DNA of 33,080 bases from the NCBI GenBank assembly GCA_031264185.1, contig JAISEL010000029.1, positions 1-33,080 of the forward strand, read 5' to 3'. This DNA is from Deltaproteobacteria bacterium (GTDB taxonomy: Bacteria; Desulfobacterota; Desulfarculia; Adiutricales; Adiutricaceae). Position 1 is the stretch's first letter. Each line of letters opens with the position of its first letter. The position numbers were made by a program, and so were the translations under genes. Of the stretch, positions 7,803 through 18,599 are shown one piece after another. The notes beneath the pieces were generated by a model, which made no database searches, was not told where the DNA came from, and saw nothing but the letters and a program-made list of their open reading frames with translations.

Positions 7803-8555
7803 TTAAAAAGTATAGGTCAGGCCGGCGGTCAGGCTGCAGGCGTAAGATCGGCTGACCATGGGGCTGCCTTTGACCGTCCCGGGCAATGACGCCACCTCGC
7901 CATAGCAAAATACTTCCCAGTGCTCGGCTTCGCCGTCCAAAATCACGCTGATGGTCAGCCCCAGAAAGGGAGAGAAGGCTGAACCGGCCTCATAGGCCGC
8001 CAGGCCGCTCCTGAGAGACTCTTTTGGGGAGATACCGTAATAATAATCGTTATAGGAGCCGCTGGCCCAATAGGTTCCCAATTGGGGCACGAACTCAAGG
8101 GTTCCGAAATCCAGGGAGCGGATATAGGCCAGACGCCCCCGAAAGCCCTGGCTGCGGCCGGAGACGTCACCGCCCAGCGAAAGGCTGAAATGGCCGACCG
8201 GGCTGGTCCACTGGACGTCGCCGCCGACCATGAGGCCTTCGCGGCGCCTGTTCAAGCGTTTCAGGCCGGGATCGGAACTTTCTCTGCCGTCAAAATTGGT
8301 GGGATCGTAACCCAGAAATACAGCCAGTTTCAGTTCCCCGGAGCTGAAAAATTTAAGCCCGGCCGACAAGTCCCGGATATAAAACCGGTCATTTTCGAAA
8401 TCCACCAGCGGAACTGCCGACCATTGCCGATCATAGTCTTTATAGGGCGAAGTCCCGGTAGTGCAGGCCAGGCCTACGGACAGATCGGCCCCGGCTGTGG
8501 CTGGCAGCCCGGCTAAAGCTCTCCCAAGCAAAAGAAGTATCAGGCTGACTTTCAT
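7803..8555 (-). CDS. MipA/OmpV family outer-membrane protein
   Basis: A 250-residue predicted outer-membrane beta-barrel. It has an N-terminal signal peptide (LILLLLGRALAG...ATAGA), alternating hydrophobic strands, and a C-terminal strand ending in ...GLTYTF with the terminal Phe used for BAM-dependent insertion. MipA of E. coli links murein hydrolase MltA to PBP1B; OmpV homologues are channel-like barrels often induced by two-component systems. An AAGGGAG ribosome binding site sits 5 nt before the ATG. It is the first gene after the kinase (gap 96 bp) and heads the MipA-acyltransferase-arginase-fold run. An AT-rich TATAAT-like element lies in the gap, so it may also have its own promoter. 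Confidence 0.82.
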   Translation of the reverse strand: MKVSLILLLLGRALAGLPATAGADLSVGLACTTGTSPYKDYDRQWSAVPLVDFENDRFYIRDLSAGLKFFSSGELKLAVFLGYDPTNFDGRESSDPGLKRLNRRREGLMVGGDVQWTSPVGHFSLSLGGDVSGRSQGFRGRLAYIRSLDFGTLEFVPQLGTYWASGSYNDYYYGISPKESLRSGLAAYEAGSAFSPFLGLTISVILDGEAEHWEVFCYGEVASLPGTVKGSPMVSRSYACSLTAGLTYTF

Positions 8556-8651
8556 TTGCTCCCTTTGATCTTAATAAGCAGTCTGTTTCCAGGCAATTCC
8601 GTTTCAGTCACTATAATTATAAACTAATGGATGCTGCTGCGCCGCTGTATA

Positions 8652-9827
8652 CTATTCTATTCCGTTCCCTTTAGCTTGTCCGTCTTTCACCGGCAGGGTC
8701 ACCGTTACCCGCAGGCCGCCGCCTGGAGTGTCATCGGCGTTTTCCGCCCAAATACTGCCGTCAAGGATGTGGACTGCCTGCCAGACAATGGCAAGGCCCA
8801 GGCCGAAGCCGCCGCTGACCCGTTCGCGGGCTTCGTTTGTTCGGTAGAAGGGCCGGAAAATATTTTCCAGATGTTCTGATTTGACCCCAGGACCATGATC
8901 AATTACTTCCAGGGTAAGGCAATTCTCTCCGCTGCGTATCCTGGCTATTACGGCCGTTCCTGGGGCAGTGTAAATGAAGGCGTTCTTTATCAGATTATCG
9001 GTGATGCGGCGAAGAAGCTGCGGGTCAGCCCACAGGACAGCCCGCTCAGGGAGGTCGTTGACGATGGTTTTGCGTTCCTTTACCGCGTTCTGCAGGGCCT
9101 CCTGACCCGATTCCCGCACCAGCCGGCATAGATCAACGTAATCAGGGTGATACAGGCTAAGACCGTCGTCGCCCTCATTGAGGGTTCCGATGGAATTCAG
9201 GCGGGCTCTCTCCAGTAACTGCCCGACCATTTCATCCATTTTTTTCATATCCCGCCCCAAATGGGTCAGAAACTTTTGAGCCTGTTCCGGCGGCGACATG
9301 GTGATTTCCTGCTCCAATAATTCCATGGCCATTTTCATCCTGGCCAGAGGCGATCTTAGTTCATGGGACATATCCCGCAACAGTCGGCGTTCGTTCTCCA
9401 GCAGCCCGACCAGAGTGTCTGCCATTCTGTTGAAGCCGCGAGACAGTTCCCCCAATTCGTCACCCCGCCGCAGGTCGCCGCCGGAAATCCTGGTTTCCAG
9501 ATCGCCTTGAGACAGATGCTCCACAGCCGCACGCAGGCGGCTGAGGGAACGGGTGCTCACGGTACTCAAAATGAATCCGCCCCCCAGAGCCGACATGATG
9601 ATGGTGGCCAGCCAGACGACGACTTCACGCTCCACATTCGTGCCCGGCAGGTTGACCAGCGATGACAGCCACTCGGTCACCTCTTCCGAACTCTCGCCCA
9701 GAATGGTCACGGCGCCCACCAAAAGCAGGGAAAAGATGTATATCTTGGCGAACAGGGAGGCCCGGTTCCAAAAATCCAAAATATGTTTTATTGCGTTCAT
9801 CGGTTGCCCCACTTCAAGCTTGAACAT
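8652..9827 (-). CDS. Sensor histidine kinase (CpxA/EnvZ-type)
   Basis: A 391-residue inner-membrane kinase. Helix 1 is about 28-45 (KIYIFSLLLVGAVTILG), the periplasmic segment is only about 25 residues, and helix 2 is about 69-90, followed by a HAMP domain (RSLSRLRAAVEHLSQGDLE). The H-box is RDMSHELRSPLARM (H155); the N-box is NLIKNAFIY, with DHGPGV and GGFGLGLAI as G boxes. All catalytic motifs are intact. The ATG at 9827 follows GGGGAAGG; an internal ATG at 9800 also has a GGGG site. The start overlaps the regulator gene's end by 14 bp, so the two are translationally coupled. The tiny periplasmic loop suggests sensing in or near the membrane, or through a partner protein such as MipA (inference). 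Confidence 0.92.
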   Translation of the reverse strand: MFKLEVGQPMNAIKHILDFWNRASLFAKIYIFSLLLVGAVTILGESSEEVTEWLSSLVNLPGTNVEREVVVWLATIIMSALGGGFILSTVSTRSLSRLRAAVEHLSQGDLETRISGGDLRRGDELGELSRGFNRMADTLVGLLENERRLLRDMSHELRSPLARMKMAMELLEQEITMSPPEQAQKFLTHLGRDMKKMDEMVGQLLERARLNSIGTLNEGDDGLSLYHPDYVDLCRLVRESGQEALQNAVKERKTIVNDLPERAVLWADPQLLRRITDNLIKNAFIYTAPGTAVIARIRSGENCLTLEVIDHGPGVKSEHLENIFRPFYRTNEARERVSGGFGLGLAIVWQAVHILDGSIWAENADDTPGGGLRVTVTLPVKDGQAKGNGIE

Positions 9828-10530
9828 AAAGATAGCCTTCCCCGCGAATGCTTTTTAGCCGGTCAGAGCCGTTGGCCGCCGGGCCGATTTTTTTTCTAAG
9901 ACGGCTGATATGGATATCCAGGCTGCGGTCGAAGGGGCTTTCCTCCCGTCCCAAGGCTTGACGAAAAAGAGCCTCGCGGGACACTATCGCTCCGGGATTC
10001 ACCGCCAGCAGCCAGAGGATCCGGAACTCGGCCGGGGTGAGAGAAAGCGTTCGCTTCCGGCTCAAGGCCTGATAGGTTTTGGCGTTCAATTCCAAGTCAT
10101 CCAGAATTAAAATCTCGGCGTCCCGGTCGGCTTCCGACTCATGGCTGGGTTCAACGCGCCTCATCACCGCTTGAATCCTGGCCAGAAGTTCCCGTGGCTC
10201 AAAAGGTTTGCCCAGGTAGTCGTCAGCGCCCAGCTCCAGACCGGCGATTCGGTCATCCGGCTCACCCTTGGCGGTCAGCATAATGACCGGAAATGTCAGT
10301 CCGGAGGTGCGCATTTCCTTCAGCACCTGAAATCCGTCCATGATCGGCATCATCACATCCAAAATCATGAGGTCAAAGGCCGATTCAGGGCTGCGGATCA
10401 TCCTCAAGGCCGAAAGCCCGTCATACGCCTCATTAACGGAAAATCCATTGGTTGTTAAATATTCAGTCAACAATTGACAAAGATATAGATCATCGTCAAC
10501 CACAAGAATTGATCGCGTGATTTCATTCAT
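9814..10530 (-). CDS. OmpR/PhoB-family response regulator (CpxR-like)
   Basis: A 238-residue DNA-binding regulator. The receiver domain has the acidic pair (D12, D13), phospho-acceptor D58 in LMILDVMMP, the Thr in MLTAKG and K108 in GKPF. The C-terminal winged helix has LTPAEFRILWLL, RSLDIHISRLRKKIG and IRGEGYLYV. The ATG at 10530, preceded by GGGCGG, puts the start right at the receiver domain; a longer frame reaching 10626 adds 32 residues unlike the family. It is the first gene of the minus-strand run and is preceded by a good promoter with a palindrome. Likely targets are its own promoter and the MipA operon. Confidence 0.94.
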   Translation of the reverse strand: MNEITRSILVVDDDLYLCQLLTEYLTTNGFSVNEAYDGLSALRMIRSPESAFDLMILDVMMPIMDGFQVLKEMRTSGLTFPVIMLTAKGEPDDRIAGLELGADDYLGKPFEPRELLARIQAVMRRVEPSHESEADRDAEILILDDLELNAKTYQALSRKRTLSLTPAEFRILWLLAVNPGAIVSREALFRQALGREESPFDRSLDIHISRLRKKIGPAANGSDRLKSIRGEGYLYVQA

Positions 10531-10668
10531 GATTCCGCCCGAACTGCTCCAGCAGGCATGAGCATATATCTGACTGTTTTGACGTGTGTGCTGCCGGAAT
10601 GGCCGCTGCCTTGAAGAAGAAGCCAATCATTGTGCGTCCGTCGAACAACGGCTGCCTCAGTGATAACG

Positions 10669-10774: not shown

Positions 10775-11195
10775 CTACTGTCGTAGAATACCTTCCAATT
10801 CCATAGCAGCCACCCGCTGAGTATCCGGGGCCAGATGGACGTAACGTTCCGTCATTTTGATGCTACTGTGGCCCATGAGCTTGCTGACTGTGCAGAGCGG
10901 TGTTCCTTTCTGCACCAGCCATGACGCAGATGTATGGCGCAGGCTTTGAATCACCACTTTCTGCCGTCGGCCGGTGGTGCCTTATAAAATCGAAAATGCG
11001 GACCGTCTTGGCGCAATCGCCTCCGCGCTGACGGAGGATCATTCCCTCGATCCCGGAGCTGGCGCAGGTATGGCGGCTGCGGGTGTTATGGTGCCTTTTG
11101 CGAAAGTGGTTCCTTCTTTGAGATTGATGTCGGCCCAGTTAAGGTCCAGGCATTCGCTGATGCGCAAGCATCCGAACAGCGGCAGCATGGTCACA
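10775..11195 (-). pseudogene. Tyrosine recombinase (phage-type integrase) remnant
   Basis: The C-terminal catalytic part of a site-specific tyrosine recombinase. On the minus strand, RISECLDLNWADINLKEG (near 11165-11105) holds the first catalytic Arg. After frameshifts the last intact frame (10957-10775) gives SLRHTSASWLVQKGTPL and LMGHSSIKMTERYVHLAPD, with the HxxR box, the second His and the tyrosine nucleophile. The middle (SGIEGMILRQRGGDCAKTV) is in a different frame, so at least two frameshifts break the gene, and the N-terminal DNA-binding domain is missing. It marks the left edge of a decayed island; no attachment site or tRNA was seen beside it. Confidence 0.82.
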
Positions 11196-11229
11196 TCATG
11201 CGAACAAGAATTTGTTTGTGAGTGACAAA

Positions 11230-11680: not shown

Positions 11681-11751
11681 ATCCGAAAAAAGCTTTAAAT
11701 ACAACAAGGCGCTGTGAATAAAAAAACTTTATTTTTCTTATTTTTAATAAT

Positions 11752-11932
11752 ATTAACCTAGCGGATAATTATGATATATCAAATACTCATTATTGTTTAT
11801 AGATGATCACGGTATAATAATTCTTTAGCCATACTACAAATTGATTATATAAATTACATAATTTTTGAGTATACTAAAGACTGAAGAAACAAAGGATAAA
11901 CTCTTTTATCATAATTATCCGCCGGGGTAATA
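11752..11932. mobile_element. MITE-like element copy B
   Basis: About 181 bp, AT-rich, bounded by imperfect inverted repeats of about 25 bp: 11752-11776 (ATTAACCTAGCGGATAATTA...) and 11907-11931 (...ATAATTATCCGCCGGGGTAAT). The interior, inverted, matches copy A at 1-118. It has no coding capacity. The ends carry TA-type flanks, as expected for IS630/Tc1-like mobilisation. Confidence 0.75.
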
Positions 11933-12350
11933 TGTCAGATTTTTTAAGATGTTGTCCAAAATTTATATTTGTGGTCAGAAAAACCTTACGGGAATTACAG
12001 CTAATGTTCATGGAGAATTAAGAATAAAAAAAATTGCCTTATATCAGGAAAAATATTTACATTGCATAATGGATCCACGACTAAGGCAGTCAGCAGTGCA
12101 GTCACTCAGCACCAAACCCATATGTATACGTTAGAAACGAGAGCGCAAGTTCTAATCCGCTTGCTGGCTAAGGAATCAATCTGCGCAATTTCGCTCTACA
12201 TTTTAGAGAGTCAAAAAATGCAAAAATATGTAGATATTCAGGACCTTTATCCCGACTCAACAATTTTTCCGCCCTTCTGACCGGATAATTACTAGTGAGA
12301 GTGACATTCGATAAGCTCTCGATAGTGTCAGATTCGTTTGTCACAATTTC
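11933..12350. other. AT-rich stretch between MITE copy B and the paralog array
   Basis: Two overlapping plus-strand frames of 61-72 codons (11949-12134, 12062-12280) have no recognisable motif and no ribosome binding site. I see no supported gene. Confidence 0.4.
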
Positions 12351-12549
12351 TCATATGCAAATGAGCCGACCGCTGGCACCGCTGACCGCGCACAATTTGG
12401 CCTCCGGTGGCAGGGCATTCGTATCCAGTTCGGGGCTGAAGCGGGTCGGATAATCAGGCTGGCCTTGGGCCTCGGCCGGTAGCTTTATGCTCAGTCTGGA
12501 CAGGATGACCAGGGCGGCTGATAGAAAAGGGCCGGATGAAATGCTCTTA
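12351..12549 (-). pseudogene. Fifth member of the secreted paralog array, N-terminal fragment
   Basis: Directly after the stop of the fourth array gene, a minus-strand frame reads a signal-like hydrophobic stretch (FLSAALVILSRLSIKLPAEA) and then PELDTNALPPEAKLCAVSGASG, which aligns with the GLxLPPEAxVYAVGGYxG region at the mature N-terminus of the array proteins. It stops at 12351, about 60 residues in. No ATG is in place, although a GGGAG site lies upstream. Best read as a truncated fifth copy whose 3' part was lost to the adjoining mobile-element zone. Confidence 0.6.
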
Positions 12550-12561
12550 TGCCCGTCTCCC

Positions 12562-13698
12562 TTATTTTTTGCCCGGTCGGCCGGGAGAGCTGGTGAGTTC
12601 CGTGCCGTCGGCCATAAAAAGGATTCTGGTTTGTTTGTCCAGCGGACCGGCCGGGCGATCCAGTCCGGGGGGTACGAAAAAATTGTACGTCAAGTTACCG
12701 GACAGTTTCAGGCGATCGGGGATGACAAAGTCGTGACTGACCACCAGGAAGCCCTTTATCAAATACCCGACTCCGCCGCTGCCGTCGGTGTTGTCAAAAG
12801 CCACCGGTATGGTTCGTCCCTCGGCCTTGGCCTTGATTTTTTCCCGTTCAAAGGCGGCCCGCCGCCATTGACGCAGTTCGACCCAGGTGGCCGGTTTGAT
12901 CAGGCCCCGCCGCATGGCTTCGGTCAGCCCGGCTTCGCCCTCGGGAAAACTGGACGGGGTTTTGAAGTCACCATAGCCAACGTTGCGGCTGGTCATGATT
13001 TTTACGCCGGTGTCAAGAGTCCGACCGACCACAGCCAGACCGTTCCTGCCCCGGATCAGGTCCTTGAGTTCCCGGCCGAACAGGCGGAGGGACACTTCGT
13101 TCAACAGGGCCAGGTTGTCCGGCCGACCGGAGACGTCAAAGGGGCCGCAGAAAACGCTCCGGCTGGGTTCGCCGCCCCAGCCGCCCATGACCACCGGCAC
13201 TTTCGGCGGTAGGCCCGAGACGGCCTGGCGGTAATGACCGCTCACGGCCACGGCCAGAATTTCGGTGCCCTCGGTCCAGCCGATCTGCCAGACGTTGGGT
13301 TCAGCGGCCCCCAGAATCAGGGCCACCGGAGTCTGGGGTGAGTTGACCGCTACCTTGATTCTGGTCGGGTCCAGGCCCTGATCGTGGTCTATGTTCCAGC
13401 CTAAGGGGCGCCCGCCTTGGGCGCCCACGGCATAGACCTCGGTTTCAGGTGGCAGAGACAGGCCGGGAAAGAAACAGCTTTCCGGCAGCCGGGCCGCTTC
13501 GGCGGTAACCGGGCGGGCTTTGGTTTCCGCGCCCAGATAGCCGGGACCGGCCAGCCCGCCGCATACCAGAATCATAATTGCAGCCATAAAAATATGTAAA
13601 GGTGAGGGAGCCATTAAGTCCGGGCCCGGTCGAACCGCCCGGACCTCACTGCCGCTGCGGCGGAGTCTGACCCATCCTGGGTATTGTCGCGAGGTCAT
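12562..13698 (-). CDS. Secreted paralog array protein 4, unknown function
   Basis: 378 residues. A leader of about 28 residues precedes a signal-like helix (HIFMAAIMILVCGGLAGPGYLGA). The shared core follows: GLSLPPETEVYAVGAQGGRPLGW, IKVAVNSPQTPVALILGAAEPNVWQIGWTEGTEILAVAVSGHY, SGLPPKVPV. It ends with the shared C-terminal YLIKGFLVVSHDFVIPDRLK...FFVPPG block. The ATG at 13698 has AAAGGTG upstream; an internal ATG at 13614 sits closer to the hydrophobic helix and could be the true start. It lies 4 bp after the stop of array gene 3. The core has no enzyme motif that I recognise. Likely periplasmic or surface-exposed. Confidence 0.8.
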   Translation of the reverse strand: MTSRQYPGWVRLRRSGSEVRAVRPGPDLMAPSPLHIFMAAIMILVCGGLAGPGYLGAETKARPVTAEAARLPESCFFPGLSLPPETEVYAVGAQGGRPLGWNIDHDQGLDPTRIKVAVNSPQTPVALILGAAEPNVWQIGWTEGTEILAVAVSGHYRQAVSGLPPKVPVVMGGWGGEPSRSVFCGPFDVSGRPDNLALLNEVSLRLFGRELKDLIRGRNGLAVVGRTLDTGVKIMTSRNVGYGDFKTPSSFPEGEAGLTEAMRRGLIKPATWVELRQWRRAAFEREKIKAKAEGRTIPVAFDNTDGSGGVGYLIKGFLVVSHDFVIPDRLKLSGNLTYNFFVPPGLDRPAGPLDKQTRILFMADGTELTSSPGRPGKK

Positions 13699-13702
13699 AG
13701 GG

Positions 13703-14815
13703 TCACCTTTCGTCCGGGTGTGGCCCTAGGGACCGCCCGTCTTCCATGAATCTGAACTGGCTGTGGCCCAGGTCGCCCTGGGGCAGGGGAACTCCGGGCG
13801 GCAGCAGGAAGAAGGCTGAATTGCCTCCGTACAGCCCGTTGGGCAAAACAAAATCAGGGCTGAGCACCACATAGGTCTGGTGCAGGGGCTGATCGCCGGA
13901 GCCCCGCATTTCCGGCGGCGGGGGGATCAGCTTCTCCGGCAGACCCTCGGCCAGGGCGGCCGCTCTTTCCCGCTCGGCTTTGGCCAGCTGCCACTGGTGC
14001 TGATCCCGGACCAGAGCCGGGCGGATGAGCCCGGCGGCAACGGCCTGGTTTAAACCAAATTTCCCCGGCAGCGGGCCGCTTAATTGAAAATCCTCTGGAC
14101 GCCAGGGCGCGGCGCTGACCCAGGGCCGGCTGGTCGGGGGCTCGGGGCCTATGTGGACCAGCCCTTTTTCAGTCGGCACCACTGTCTCCGGCGCCCGGCC
14201 GAACAGGGTGCGGGACAGGTCGGCGAAATCAGCCGGGTTTTTTTTGGCGAGGGCGCTGACGTAAAAGTGGGCGCCGGGTTGTTTCTGGTCATAACTGCTG
14301 ATCAGCATCGGAGTTCGCGGCGGCAGCCCGGAGACGAACTGGCTGTGATAGCCGCTCACCATGACCCCCAGGATGCGGGTGCCCTCGGTCCATTCGATCC
14401 GCCAGACCGTCGGCTCGTAAGTCCCCAGCATCAGCAGCACCGGCCGCTCGGGGGAATTGACCGCCACTTTGATCAGGTGGCCTTCATGCCCGCTGATGCG
14501 GTCGAGGGGCCAGCCCAGCTCTTGCCCGCCGTAGACGCTGACCGCATAGACCACGGCATCCTCGGGCAGTTCGGCAATGTTAAGGCCGGGCAGAGCGCAG
14601 ACGCCGGGCGTTTGCCGGTCAAAAAATTCCATCTCCACCAGACCGGGGGGGAGGGGGGCTTCAGTCCGGGCAGCATCTTTGTCCAGGACGGCGGCTTCGG
14701 TTCGGGGGGCCGGTTCATCAGGCCGGGGCCCGTCTTTGCTCCACATCAGGATCAACAGAGGCATACCGAGCAGGGCCACAATTCCCAGCACTAGATATTT
14801 TTTCCACTCTTTCAT
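13703..14815 (-). CDS. Membrane-anchored paralog array protein 3, unknown function
   Basis: 370 residues. The N-terminus KKYLVLGIVALLGMPLLILMW is an uncleaved-looking transmembrane anchor, followed by a charged Pro/Ala/Glu-rich linker of about 60 residues, then the family core (GLNIAELPEDAVVYAVSVYG, VNSPERPVLLMLGTYEPTVW, SGYHSQFVSGLPPRTPMLIS) and the C-terminal SPDFVLPNGLYGGNSAFFLLPPG block. The start at 14815 has a GAGGG site and follows the preceding stop by 10 bp; a longer frame to 14893 would read into the upstream gene. This copy has lost two of the three cysteines found in copies 1 and 2. Co-transcribed with its neighbours. Confidence 0.8.
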   Translation of the reverse strand: MKEWKKYLVLGIVALLGMPLLILMWSKDGPRPDEPAPRTEAAVLDKDAARTEAPLPPGLVEMEFFDRQTPGVCALPGLNIAELPEDAVVYAVSVYGGQELGWPLDRISGHEGHLIKVAVNSPERPVLLMLGTYEPTVWRIEWTEGTRILGVMVSGYHSQFVSGLPPRTPMLISSYDQKQPGAHFYVSALAKKNPADFADLSRTLFGRAPETVVPTEKGLVHIGPEPPTSRPWVSAAPWRPEDFQLSGPLPGKFGLNQAVAAGLIRPALVRDQHQWQLAKAERERAAALAEGLPEKLIPPPPEMRGSGDQPLHQTYVVLSPDFVLPNGLYGGNSAFFLLPPGVPLPQGDLGHSQFRFMEDGRSLGPHPDER

Positions 14816-14825
14816 ATAAACGCCC

Positions 14826-15857
14826 TCACTGCCCGGGGCCCAGGCTGCGGCCGTTTTCCAGGAACAGAATGCGGCAGTGACCCATCGGCCCACGGGGCAC
14901 GGGCATCCCGGGGGGGATGAAAAAAGTGGCCGAATGAGCCCCGGTCAGGCCTTCGGGGAGGAAGAATTCGGAACTGGTCACCAGATAAGCATTGTGCCGG
15001 ACCAGACCGCCGGAATAGTCCTTCGGCGCAATGAGGTTTTCCGGCACGCCGTTGGCCCGGGCCTGCCGCTTTTCCTCCTCCAGGCGGACCTTGGCCCACT
15101 GGCTGAACTCCGTGCTGGAGGCCGGCTTGATCTGGCCCTGGCGGATGGCCTCTCGCAGGGCGTCCGAGCCATTCAGGGCCATGGGGGCGGGGCTGTTCTT
15201 TTCCCGATCCAAGGGAGTGGCGGTCACGCTGAAATCGCCCGGGCTCAAGGCCCTGGCCGTGTAATATTTGTCGCCGGTCTGCGGCCCGATCAGGGCCTGA
15301 CCTTTTTCAGCCTGGGACATATCACCAAGGTCCCGGCCGAAAAGATGCTGGGACAGGCTGTTGAGCACCTTGATTTCCTGAAGGTCGTTTCTGACCTTAA
15401 AACGGGCGCAGGGGCCACCCTGGTCGTAGCTGCCCACCAGCAGCTGGGTTTCCGGCGGCAGCCCGGATACGAACTGACTGTGGTAGCCGCTGACGATCAC
15501 CGCCAGGATTTGGGTGCCCCTGGTCCAGCCGATCTGCCAGACGTTGGGTTCGTAGGCCCCCAGCATCAATATGACCGGGGCTTGCGGGGAATTGACTCCC
15601 ACCTTGATCGAAGTGGCCCGGTGACCGCTGCGGTCAATGGTCCAGCCCAGGGGCTCCCCATTGTAGCCGCCGACCGCATAGACCCTGGCATTGTCCGGGA
15701 TGGCCAGGCCGGGAAAGCCGCAGCCCTGGGGTGCCTGGGGTGTCCGGTCGAACTCCATTTCCACCAGGCCGGAGGTGTCGGCCACGGCCGACGGACTCAG
15801 GTTCAGCAACACGGACAGTAAAAAGGCCGGAATGATCAAGGCTGTTTTTTTCCCCAT
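14826..15857 (-). CDS. Secreted paralog array protein 2, unknown function
   Basis: 343 residues with a clean signal peptide (ALIIPAFLLSVLLNLSPSAVA, likely cut after AVA). The core reads GLAIPDNARVYAVGGYNGEPLGW, IKVGVNSPQAPVILMLGAYEPNVWQIGWTRGTQILAVIVSGYHSQFVSGLPPETQLLVGSYDQ; a helical charged middle (EEEKRQARANGVPENLI) and a C-terminal SSEFFLPEGLTGAHSATFFIPPG block follow. Three cysteines (QGCGFPG, GGPCARF, GHCRIL) fall at the same places as in array protein 1. The ATG at 15857 has a GGAGATGG site. No domain that I can name. Probably periplasmic. Confidence 0.82.
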   Translation of the reverse strand: MGKKTALIIPAFLLSVLLNLSPSAVADTSGLVEMEFDRTPQAPQGCGFPGLAIPDNARVYAVGGYNGEPLGWTIDRSGHRATSIKVGVNSPQAPVILMLGAYEPNVWQIGWTRGTQILAVIVSGYHSQFVSGLPPETQLLVGSYDQGGPCARFKVRNDLQEIKVLNSLSQHLFGRDLGDMSQAEKGQALIGPQTGDKYYTARALSPGDFSVTATPLDREKNSPAPMALNGSDALREAIRQGQIKPASSTEFSQWAKVRLEEEKRQARANGVPENLIAPKDYSGGLVRHNAYLVTSSEFFLPEGLTGAHSATFFIPPGMPVPRGPMGHCRILFLENGRSLGPGQ

Positions 15858-15997
15858 AAACCATCTCCGTTTTTCAAAGCCAAGCTTGGGCCATGCTCCG
15901 CCGAAGCGGCGGCTCGGTCAGCCGGGCTTGGTAGCAGCCTCATTTTAATTCATCAGTAACTTCAAAGTTTTAGGGGCGGTCCTGAACCTGGCCGTGC

Positions 15998-16987
15998 TCA
16001 GTCGCGAATCACCACCATGCAGTTGGACCGGCCGCTCCGTTCCGGCGCTTTTTGACCGGCAGGCACCAGAAAGGTGATGGCCGGCTGGCTGTTGAGCCCA
16101 CCTGGTATGACGAAGTCCTGGCTCAGGACCATATAGGCCTCATAGACGAAAACAGCGGCCGTCGGATTAGACAGGCGAATCATTTGCTGGGGATAGTCGG
16201 AGCCCTGCCTGGTGTTCGGCGCTTCCCCTGACCCGCTGTTACGACGGGTCTTCGGCGCTTTTTCTGACTGCTGGCGCCAGATGTGATGCTCAGTGGCCGT
16301 GGCCGGGCGGATAAGCCCTTTGGCCCTGGCCTCTTCCAGGCCGGCCAGACCGTCAAGCGGGATTCCGGCCTTGACTGTGCTTTCCCGGGACAGATCTTGG
16401 GCCGTCAGAAGTTTTTGCCCGGCCGAAAGCGGACGGCCGAGGGTGACCTGACCCTTGGCCGCAGGTTGGGCGGCTTCCAGGTCCCGGCCGAACATGGCTC
16501 TGGCGAAATCATTGATCGTCATTATTATTTGCAGGGTCGGGTCAAAATAGAAATAGCCGCAAGGGCCCTTGTCCTGGAAAGTGCTGATCAGCACCGGCAC
16601 GCCCTGGCTGAGCCCGGAGACCTTTTGGGTGTGATACCCGGCGGCCACGACCGCCAGAATTTCAGTGCCCTCGGTCCAGCCGATCTGCCAGACGTTGGGC
16701 TCATAAGCGCCCAGAATCAACGCTACCGGGGCTTCGGGGGAATTGACGGCCACCCTGATATAGGTCGAAGCGTGCCCCGAATTCTCAATACTCCAGCCCA
16801 GGGACTCCCCCTTGTAACCTCCGGCTGCGTAGACCCTGGCCTCCGGCGGCAGCCTGAGCCCAGGAAATGAGCAGCCGGTTGAGTCCGGCTCCGGCCCGGC
16901 GGCCAGTGAGGCGGGGAATGCGGCCGCCGGAATCAGTGCGGCCATGGCGGCTAAAAGGACCAGACTCCGGTTAAGCCAATAATTCAT
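15998..16987 (-). CDS. Secreted paralog array protein 1, unknown function
   Basis: 329 residues; first gene of the array in transcription order. Signal peptide SLVLLAAMAALIPAAAFPAS. Core: GLRLPPEARVYAAGGYKGESLGW, VAVNSPEAPVALILGAYEPNVWQIGWTEGTEILAVVAAGYH, then a diverged middle with a polar insert (RRNSGSGEAPNTRQGSDYPQ) and the C-terminal SQDFVIPGGLNSQPAITFLVPAG block. The ATG at 16987 has a GAGG site and places the signal peptide at the N-terminus; a longer frame to 17101 adds a leader unlike the family. A 140-bp gap with a GC-rich inverted repeat (15899-15913) separates it from array gene 2, so expression of the rest may differ. Confidence 0.82.
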   Translation of the reverse strand: MNYWLNRSLVLLAAMAALIPAAAFPASLAAGPEPDSTGCSFPGLRLPPEARVYAAGGYKGESLGWSIENSGHASTYIRVAVNSPEAPVALILGAYEPNVWQIGWTEGTEILAVVAAGYHTQKVSGLSQGVPVLISTFQDKGPCGYFYFDPTLQIIMTINDFARAMFGRDLEAAQPAAKGQVTLGRPLSAGQKLLTAQDLSRESTVKAGIPLDGLAGLEEARAKGLIRPATATEHHIWRQQSEKAPKTRRNSGSGEAPNTRQGSDYPQQMIRLSNPTAAVFVYEAYMVLSQDFVIPGGLNSQPAITFLVPAGQKAPERSGRSNCMVVIRD

Positions 16988-17461: not shown

Positions 17462-17560
17462 CATTATTACCCCGGCGGATAATTATGATAATCTATTTCT
17501 TCATTGATTTTACCTTATGATGATTTGTTTGTATAAAAATTATCCGCCGGGGTAATAATG
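17462..17560. mobile_element. Short element bounded by the same terminal inverted repeats (99 bp)
   Basis: CATTATTACCCCGGCGGATA at the left end and its inverted match ending at 17560 give near-perfect terminal repeats of about 25 bp around a 50-bp AT-rich centre unlike copies A and B. The right repeat directly precedes the IS630-type transposase remnant, so it may be that element's left end rather than part of a separate MITE. Confidence 0.6.
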
Positions 17561-17566
17561 GCTGGC

Positions 17567-18378
17567 CAGTCCCCAAAAAAGCTGGCAGGTCATTATGGTC
17601 CGAGAGAAAACTATTTTCTGAACAAGAGGCCGTCATTAGGGATATCCTCATAAGCAGATGCCAACTGAAGTAGGCATTAACTATTCGGCGCAGCAGCGCA
17701 AGGTAATTTTTGAGCTCATTAAGAAAAAGTTTAGTATTGACATAGCTGTCGCCGCTGTTGGTAAATATATGAAATTATGGGGTTTCCAAAGCAAAAGCCG
17801 TTATAAAAATCTCACGAACAGGACCCCGAAAAAGAGGCACAATGGCTTGAAGACTTTATGGAGGAATACACAAGAGAGCAATAAGAAGATAAGGTCGGTA
17901 TATATTTTGTTGATGAAACTGGCGTAAAGTCAGAAAATTCAAGCCTTTATTACTACGCTCCTAAGGGAAAACACCAACCGTAACGGTCACAGGAAAGCGT
18001 ATTGCTCTGAACATCATTTTATCTGTTTTTGTTGTTGGAAAAATGCTTTGATCGAAATCATTGGAATCTATGAAAATATATTAATTTATCAGTTTTATGA
18101 GGTAGCGTATCAACAGATCTTCAAGAAAAATTTTTCTTGCAGTCGACAGCCTTAGAGCCAATCATTCAAAAAATGTTACTGCGTGCCTAAAAGAACATCA
18201 TGACAGAATTGAGATTTTTTATCTGTCTCCATATTCACCAGAATTAAACTATGATGAATATCTAAACAATATATTAAAAGGTGAGCTGCGCAAGTTCCCT
18301 CAACATTATGAACCGGATGATCTTAATGCAAATATCCACAAAATCCTCATGAAAGTGCAGAAAGACTCACAAAAATGA
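17567..18378 (+). pseudogene. IS630-family transposase pseudogene
   Basis: Broken frames match IS630/Tc1-type transposases in order: KLFSEQEAVIRDILIS, then NYSAQQRKVIFELIKKKFSI with VGKYMKLWGFQ (helix-turn-helix region), QDPEKEAQWLEDFMEEYTRE, IYFVDETGVKSENS (first Asp of the DDE set), YYYAPKGK, TGKRIALNIILSV, IFLAVDSLRANHSKNV (second Asp) and SPYSPELNYDEYLNN (third acidic residue). At least three frameshifts and an in-frame stop interrupt it, and about 60 codons between the first two Asp regions are scrambled or missing. The left TIR is at 17532-17560; no matching right TIR was found before recG. Confidence 0.85.
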
Positions 18379-18599
18379 TAAATATATATGACCACGAAAA
18401 AGTTGGTTATGCCAATGGGTATTAGCTTAAATTCCTGCAATGTTACGCAGTACGAAACTCTAAGAGAATTAGCTCAAAACCTGATTTTCAGAATTTCATG
18501 CCGTGGTAATAGTATAGCAAAATAAAGAAATTTATGCTTAGTAAAATGACATGAAATATCTATGCAAGTTATATCAATATTATAGCTTATTTCTCCGTT

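Follow-up and report, generated by a model that had tools for sequence, protein, structure and literature searches.

The contig JAISEL010000029.1 of assembly GCA_031264185.1, from a deltaproteobacterium of the Adiutricaceae, contains a tandem array of four paralogous minus-strand genes that we call c1 to c4. The stretch that we analyzed, here called the window, is this one entire contig (33,080 nucleotides) of a 4.4-Mb genome. We propose, with a probability of roughly 0.5, that the array encodes four exported binding proteins, each comprised of an N-terminal domain resembling the orphan domain (OD) of betaglycan and endoglin followed by a C-terminal alpha/beta domain of unrecognized fold. Each intact unit has two parts, an N-terminal core of about 140 residues and a C-terminal part of about 110 residues, located as follows.

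15998..16987, minus strand: c4, an exported paralog with a signal peptide, OD-like core and C-terminal domain
16436..16867, minus strand: OD-like core of c4, matched by profile A6 with an expectation value (E) of 1.6e-48, the profile including c4
14826..15857, minus strand: c3, the modeled copy, an exported paralog whose signal peptide is probably cleaved after AVA
15285..15716, minus strand: OD-like core of c3, a profile match; matched to the betaglycan OD at Z 9.2
14829..15287, minus strand: C-terminal domain of c3, including its linker, with the DFxxPxGL...FFxPPG block; the fold is unrecognized
13703..14815, minus strand: c2, a paralog with an N-terminal membrane anchor and the second conserved cysteine lost; starts 10 nt past the stop of c3
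14162..14569, minus strand: OD-like core of c2, matched by profile A6 (E 4.8e-35)
12562..13698, minus strand: c1, a paralog with a signal-peptide-like segment; starts 4 nt past the stop of c2
13057..13470, minus strand: OD-like core of c1, matched by profile A6 (E 3.7e-29)
12565-13026, 13706-14149 and 16001-16438, minus strand: equivalents of the C-terminal domain in the other copies
12351..12561, minus strand: remnant of a fifth copy, lacking an in-frame start codon and retaining only about the first 18 residues of the core

The c3 protein was modeled with AlphaFold2 from an alignment of seven units, giving a mean predicted local distance difference test score (pLDDT) of 74.7, and 10-residue blocks of the core mostly had values of 70-89. 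When this model was compared blindly with the PDB using Foldseek, the best matches were all ODs of betaglycan (TGFBR3) or endoglin. With VIA-align the predicted core matched a betaglycan OD at Z 9.2 (root-mean-square deviation 3.0, 117 residues). The full set of Z scores was 9.2, 8.9, 8.9, 8.5 and 7.9 for betaglycan and 7.2 and 7.0 for endoglin, over 115-118 residues, and the next unrelated fold had a Z of only 2.6. The matched ranges were complete OD half-domains, from the first strand to the last helix and strand, and the predicted c3 core has the OD fold over this whole half-domain. OD2 was matched in 9b9f, 6mzp and 9fdy and OD1 in 7lbg. Identity between the window cores and betaglycan in the structural alignment was 11-13%.

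Sequence comparisons pointed to the same domain. Searching all PDB sequences with a profile built from 14 bacterial cores gave three matches at E<=10, all of them betaglycan ODs (E 0.019, 0.019 and 0.026). This profile aligned PvvLvLgsyepvvWqi with KPIVFLLNSPQPLVWHLK in OD1 and NLVLILKCKKSVNWVIK in OD2 of betaglycan, placing the W motif on equivalent strands in both OD halves. An earlier profile of nine cores ranked betaglycan third (E 0.31). Using hhalign, we compared 19 cores with seven OD sequences, the animal query sequences having been checked letter by letter against PDB chains, and obtained a probability of 75%, a pairwise E of 2.6e-5 and a score of 34.5; none of 400 column-shuffled decoys scored above 18.05. 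The maximum-accuracy alignment ran end to end over 112 columns, only about 21 of them confident. An earlier hhalign comparison with nine cores was only suggestive (E 0.0026), with at least one of 299 decoys scoring higher. In the reverse search, a hidden Markov model (HMM) of the animal OD put bacterial members first among 676 open reading frames (ORFs) at 26.0 bits, and seven of its eight top ORFs were bacterial members; the best of 13,520 shuffled ORFs reached 7.2 bits. The ends of the domains are also alike by eye (VTSFTELKIARNIYIK in betaglycan and LSSFQGSYKANHFNIS in a homolog from genome G598). The sequence similarity to betaglycan thus appears faint but specific, and we conclude that the core is an OD-like domain. 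The original prediction, made from the letters of the window and its ORFs, had named a confident match of the core to a well-characterized domain of known function as evidence against it. This applies only in part: the predicted fold is that of a described domain, the betaglycan/endoglin OD, but the function of the bacterial form is not described.

We consider it likely that this resemblance reflects homology rather than convergence. An unrelated bacterial beta-sandwich, still exported, that happens to resemble the OD and carries the W strand motif by chance seems unlikely to us. Beta-sandwiches do tend to look alike, other core sets give weaker matches, and the confident alignment covers only about 21 columns. 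However, a blind structure search and a blind sequence search of the whole PDB converged on the same domain, the structural score fell to 2.6 at the next fold, and the motif sits on equivalent strands in both OD halves. Several observations weigh against our proposal. It uses a single model, whose underlying alignment is shallow (7 rows; mean pLDDT of the model 74.7), and confident sequence similarity is limited to about 21-25 columns around the W motif. HMMs of OD1 only or OD2 only rank the bacterial members less clearly, and a slightly different profile of 12 cores placed betaglycan behind unrelated chains (E 0.49). No conserved neighbor gene was found. Finally, a shared fold alone does not show a shared function.

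In betaglycan and endoglin, the OD holds TGF-beta or BMP ligands for the signaling receptors (PMC11865472, PMC12824264). The animal OD and the window cores have in common the predicted fold, the strand motif PxVLxLgSyePvvWqI, an extracellular location and tandem multiplication. The window units differ in being bacterial and in having one OD-like domain followed by an unrelated C-terminal domain, whereas betaglycan and endoglin have an OD1-OD2 pair joined by paired antiparallel strands. The zona pellucida domain and C-terminal transmembrane segment of the animal proteins were not found in the window proteins by Pfam search and hydrophobicity, respectively, and no second hydrophobic segment was seen in c1-c4 when the sequences were checked by eye. 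Targeting signals were also judged by eye. Classical Sec signal peptides are present in c3 and c4. In c1 a hydrophobic signal-peptide-like segment follows a long n-region, and c2 has a hydrophobic anchor with no obvious cleavage site. One cysteine in CxFPGL and another in GPCxxF are shared by c1, c3, c4 and most homologs, the second being lost in c2; this conserved pair would fit a disulfide of an exported protein.

The C-terminal region is predicted to contain a helix, a strand and a helix, then strands bearing DFxxPxGLxG...FFxPPG. When this region was modeled alone, blocks from residue 41 onward mostly had pLDDT values of 86-95, with a dip at residues 81-100. The C-terminal block is a domain separate from the core. 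Comparison of this domain with the PDB using Foldseek and VIA-align gave no match at useful scores, which does not by itself make the fold new. No match to c1-c4 was found in Pfam, NCBIfam or PHROGs, or among PADLOC models of anti-phage defense at E<=0.1, and in the proteins scanned neither domain has a matching Pfam or NCBIfam model. The original prediction was thus correct that the core belongs to no characterized sequence family. It was also correct in describing four minus-strand paralogs with a truncated fifth copy, the motifs it named all being present, and in describing tandem exported paralogs with varied N-terminal targeting. It missed the OD-like core, the separate C-terminal domain, the decayed mobile elements that flank the array and a three-unit protein in a relative. 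Membership in the kelch family was considered and rejected. The window units share one YAVGGYxG string, as found in designed SAKe propellers, and phmmer matches to SAKe chains stem from the YAVGGY string repeated there. Kelch proteins have several motifs that form a propeller, whereas each window unit has one partial motif, no Pfam kelch match and, in c3, a sandwich-like predicted fold. A match in the viral scan (L026) was a false coiled-coil match.

Homologs of the whole unit were found in few genomes. Smac51 (CP026657.1), from the same family, encodes one exported protein of 961 aa with three consecutive two-domain units, and G011, also of this family, has a C-terminal fragment of a unit where a contig ends. 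Members of another class of the phylum have the unit as single exported proteins of 325-337 aa (G496, G489 and G474) or behind an LprI domain (G537). Thus, the same exported two-domain unit is present as three units per polypeptide in Smac51, as one gene in these three genomes and as four separate genes in the window. The Smac51 cores are separated by C-terminal domains, unlike the OD1-OD2 pair of betaglycan and endoglin. Units from Smac51, G496, G489 and G474 are 28-39% identical to c3. In a sample of the phylum, about 1% of genomes had a match (4/394; 3/395). Searches of six further species of the genus, among them some with incomplete genomes, did not detect the two-domain unit, and tblastn against plasmids and phages gave no match. 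A search of genome contigs gave no match with a single protein query and only Smac51 with a profile query. The 4.4-Mb genome has no further copy of the gene beyond c1-c4 and the remnant. From these searches the full two-domain unit appears rare and patchy. In a tree, the four window copies form one group (support 82/93), as do repeats 2 and 3 of Smac51 (98/98). Because window and Smac51 units are kept apart in 96% of bootstrap trees, the relationships fit separate expansions of the two arrays.

The core also occurs without the C-terminal domain. It forms the C-terminus of a 627-aa lipoprotein-like protein in G325, lies near the N-terminus of a 446-aa lipoprotein-like protein in G076 and occurs in a 262-aa anchored protein in G598. 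In proteins of 819 aa and 1207 aa (G609, G598) it is repeated two or three times. In these exported proteins (1207 aa, L047:3582-7205; 819 aa, L048:1465-3924) the OD-like core alternates with a repeated domain of about 120 aa (AFYYD...FHGIxAxxFxAYWVG...GxHKIE) that has no match in Pfam or the PDB. We discarded a PA14-like label for the domain between cores in G598, G609 and G474, which was a by-eye impression unsupported by Pfam and PDB searches. In one G474 protein (L032:70-1887) the OD-like core is combined with ankyrin repeats, LprI and an unnamed domain.

Ligand capture is the simplest reading of the bacterial module because it is combined with export signals, anchors, LprI and repeated domains, and is multiplied. 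We judge the chance that the window proteins bind ligands, by analogy with the animal OD, to be about even. In our proposal, the OD-like domain would be a portable module of extracellular proteins with remote homology to the animal OD, and it would capture a protein or glycan ligand. Tandem duplication would have produced four versions on one scaffold that differ in their loops and display, with three copies behind signal peptides and c2 anchored in the membrane. The proteins could be periplasmic, held at the surface or released. Smac51 may achieve multivalency by fusing three units into one polypeptide. Either way, copy number would provide avidity or a choice of ligands outside the cytoplasm.

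LprI lysozyme inhibitors (PF07007) are exported like the window proteins. In G537 an LprI domain (E 4.5e-16) is fused to the N-terminal side of a complete unit, and in G474 one stands ahead of the core. Like LprI, the units might protect the envelope, acting in the periplasm or on the cell surface against lysozyme or other proteins that attack the wall. The window also has a penicillin-binding protein gene upstream. We regard this idea, which is a special case of ligand capture, as quite unlikely. Most homologs and all window copies have no LprI domain; LprI gave no match in c1-c4, and the core is not LprI. Moreover, sister species without the array also conserve the penicillin-binding protein-recG pair.

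The name orphan domain reflects a lack of known relatives, and we found no report of bacterial homologs of the betaglycan/endoglin OD in a literature search that was not exhaustive. What appears to be new here, based on the models, is that a fold already known occurs in bacteria, where it has a new partner domain and a new architecture. The OD-like module is multiplied in two ways, as separate genes or within one long protein, and is joined to a domain of unrecognized fold. If our proposal is true, the bacterial family gives the OD an evolutionary context and provides simple single-domain versions for study. It would also let us test in which direction, from bacteria or to them, a key animal growth-factor co-receptor module moved. 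More speculatively, and with considerable doubt, the animal OD might belong, as a single branch, to an older family of exported modules that is also present in bacteria and shared by horizontal transfer in either direction, with bacterial arrays binding protein ligands, possibly those of an animal host.

Comparison of the four copies speaks to their history. In a codon alignment c1-c4 are homologous over their full length with 34-45% identity between copies, and c1, c2 and c4 are 40-44% identical to c3 (E 1e-63 to 1e-74), a similarity far above chance. At the DNA level, a 219-nt block and a 92-nt block each occur in four copies spaced 1114-1151 nt apart. Conservation peaks at YEPNVWQIGWTxGTxILAVxVSGYH (73% mean identity), and much of the middle and C-terminal parts is 22-48% identical among copies, with the low of 22% reached at some points in the middle. 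By the Nei-Gojobori method (NG86), nonsynonymous divergence (dN) was 0.53-0.77 and synonymous divergence (dS) 0.93-1.76, giving a ratio of about 0.4-0.7 that is an average over sites with dS near saturation. Second codon positions are the most conserved and third positions the least. The copies are old and divergent rather than recently shuffled. The original prediction had called the array diversifying, and a surface array under diversifying selection or recombination, generating antigenic or receptor variety, would suit the tandem copies, divergent middles, differing targeting and island-like setting. However, dN/dS averages less than 1, conservation is lowest at third codon positions, and identities of 34-45% leave no room for recent conversion or shuffling, which makes this explanation very unlikely.

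The genes are transcribed in the order c4, c3, c2, c1 with intergenic gaps of 140, 10 and 4 nt; therefore c3-c2-c1, at least, look like a single operon. Both c4 and c2 have ATG starts, preceded by GAGG and GAGGG, respectively. A longer c4 frame with a TTG start extends to 17101, and a longer c2 frame would overlap c3. The fifth copy retains a signal-peptide-like stretch and LPPEAKLCAVSGASGRLI, then a stop, and is a remnant because it has no in-frame start codon.

The array has a GC content of 62-65%, compared to 52-59% for most of the surrounding coding sequence and 37-41% for two bordering belts. These belts hold the following decayed mobile elements on either side of the array.

11750..11933: on one flank, an element resembling a miniature inverted-repeat transposable element (MITE), its inverted ends of IS630 type
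17462..17560: on the opposite flank, a second MITE-like element whose inverted ends are the same
17561..18500, plus strand: broken IS630-like transposase in several frames, motifs by eye
10778..11200, minus strand: broken tyrosine recombinase, C-terminal part (LRHTSASWLVQKG...MGHSSIKMTERYVH), motifs by eye

The penicillin-binding protein-recG pair is common to sister species and, where the sequence downstream of it is readable, nothing of the array was found there. The array is probably an acquired island because of its higher GC content, the flanking decayed mobile elements and the negative searches of six sister species. That it is merely decaying, functionless island DNA is hardly credible: the transposase, recombinase and fifth copy are all broken and the array was not found in sister species, but four long intact frames remain, with ribosome-binding sites and spaced as in an operon, and the differences between copies show a purifying pattern.

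Short elements with IS630-type inverted ends (TTACCCCGGCGGATAATTATGATAAA) occur four times in the window, including at 92-117, with a chance expectation of 0. In one sister genome, G001 (L057, L058), three contigs match recG, one of them completely and the other two in part; this is perhaps a mixed assembly. Downstream of the array, at 7803-10626, a gene for a MipA-family outer-membrane protein adjoins genes for a histidine kinase and a response regulator on the same strand. This two-component pair has relatives at other loci in two sister species.

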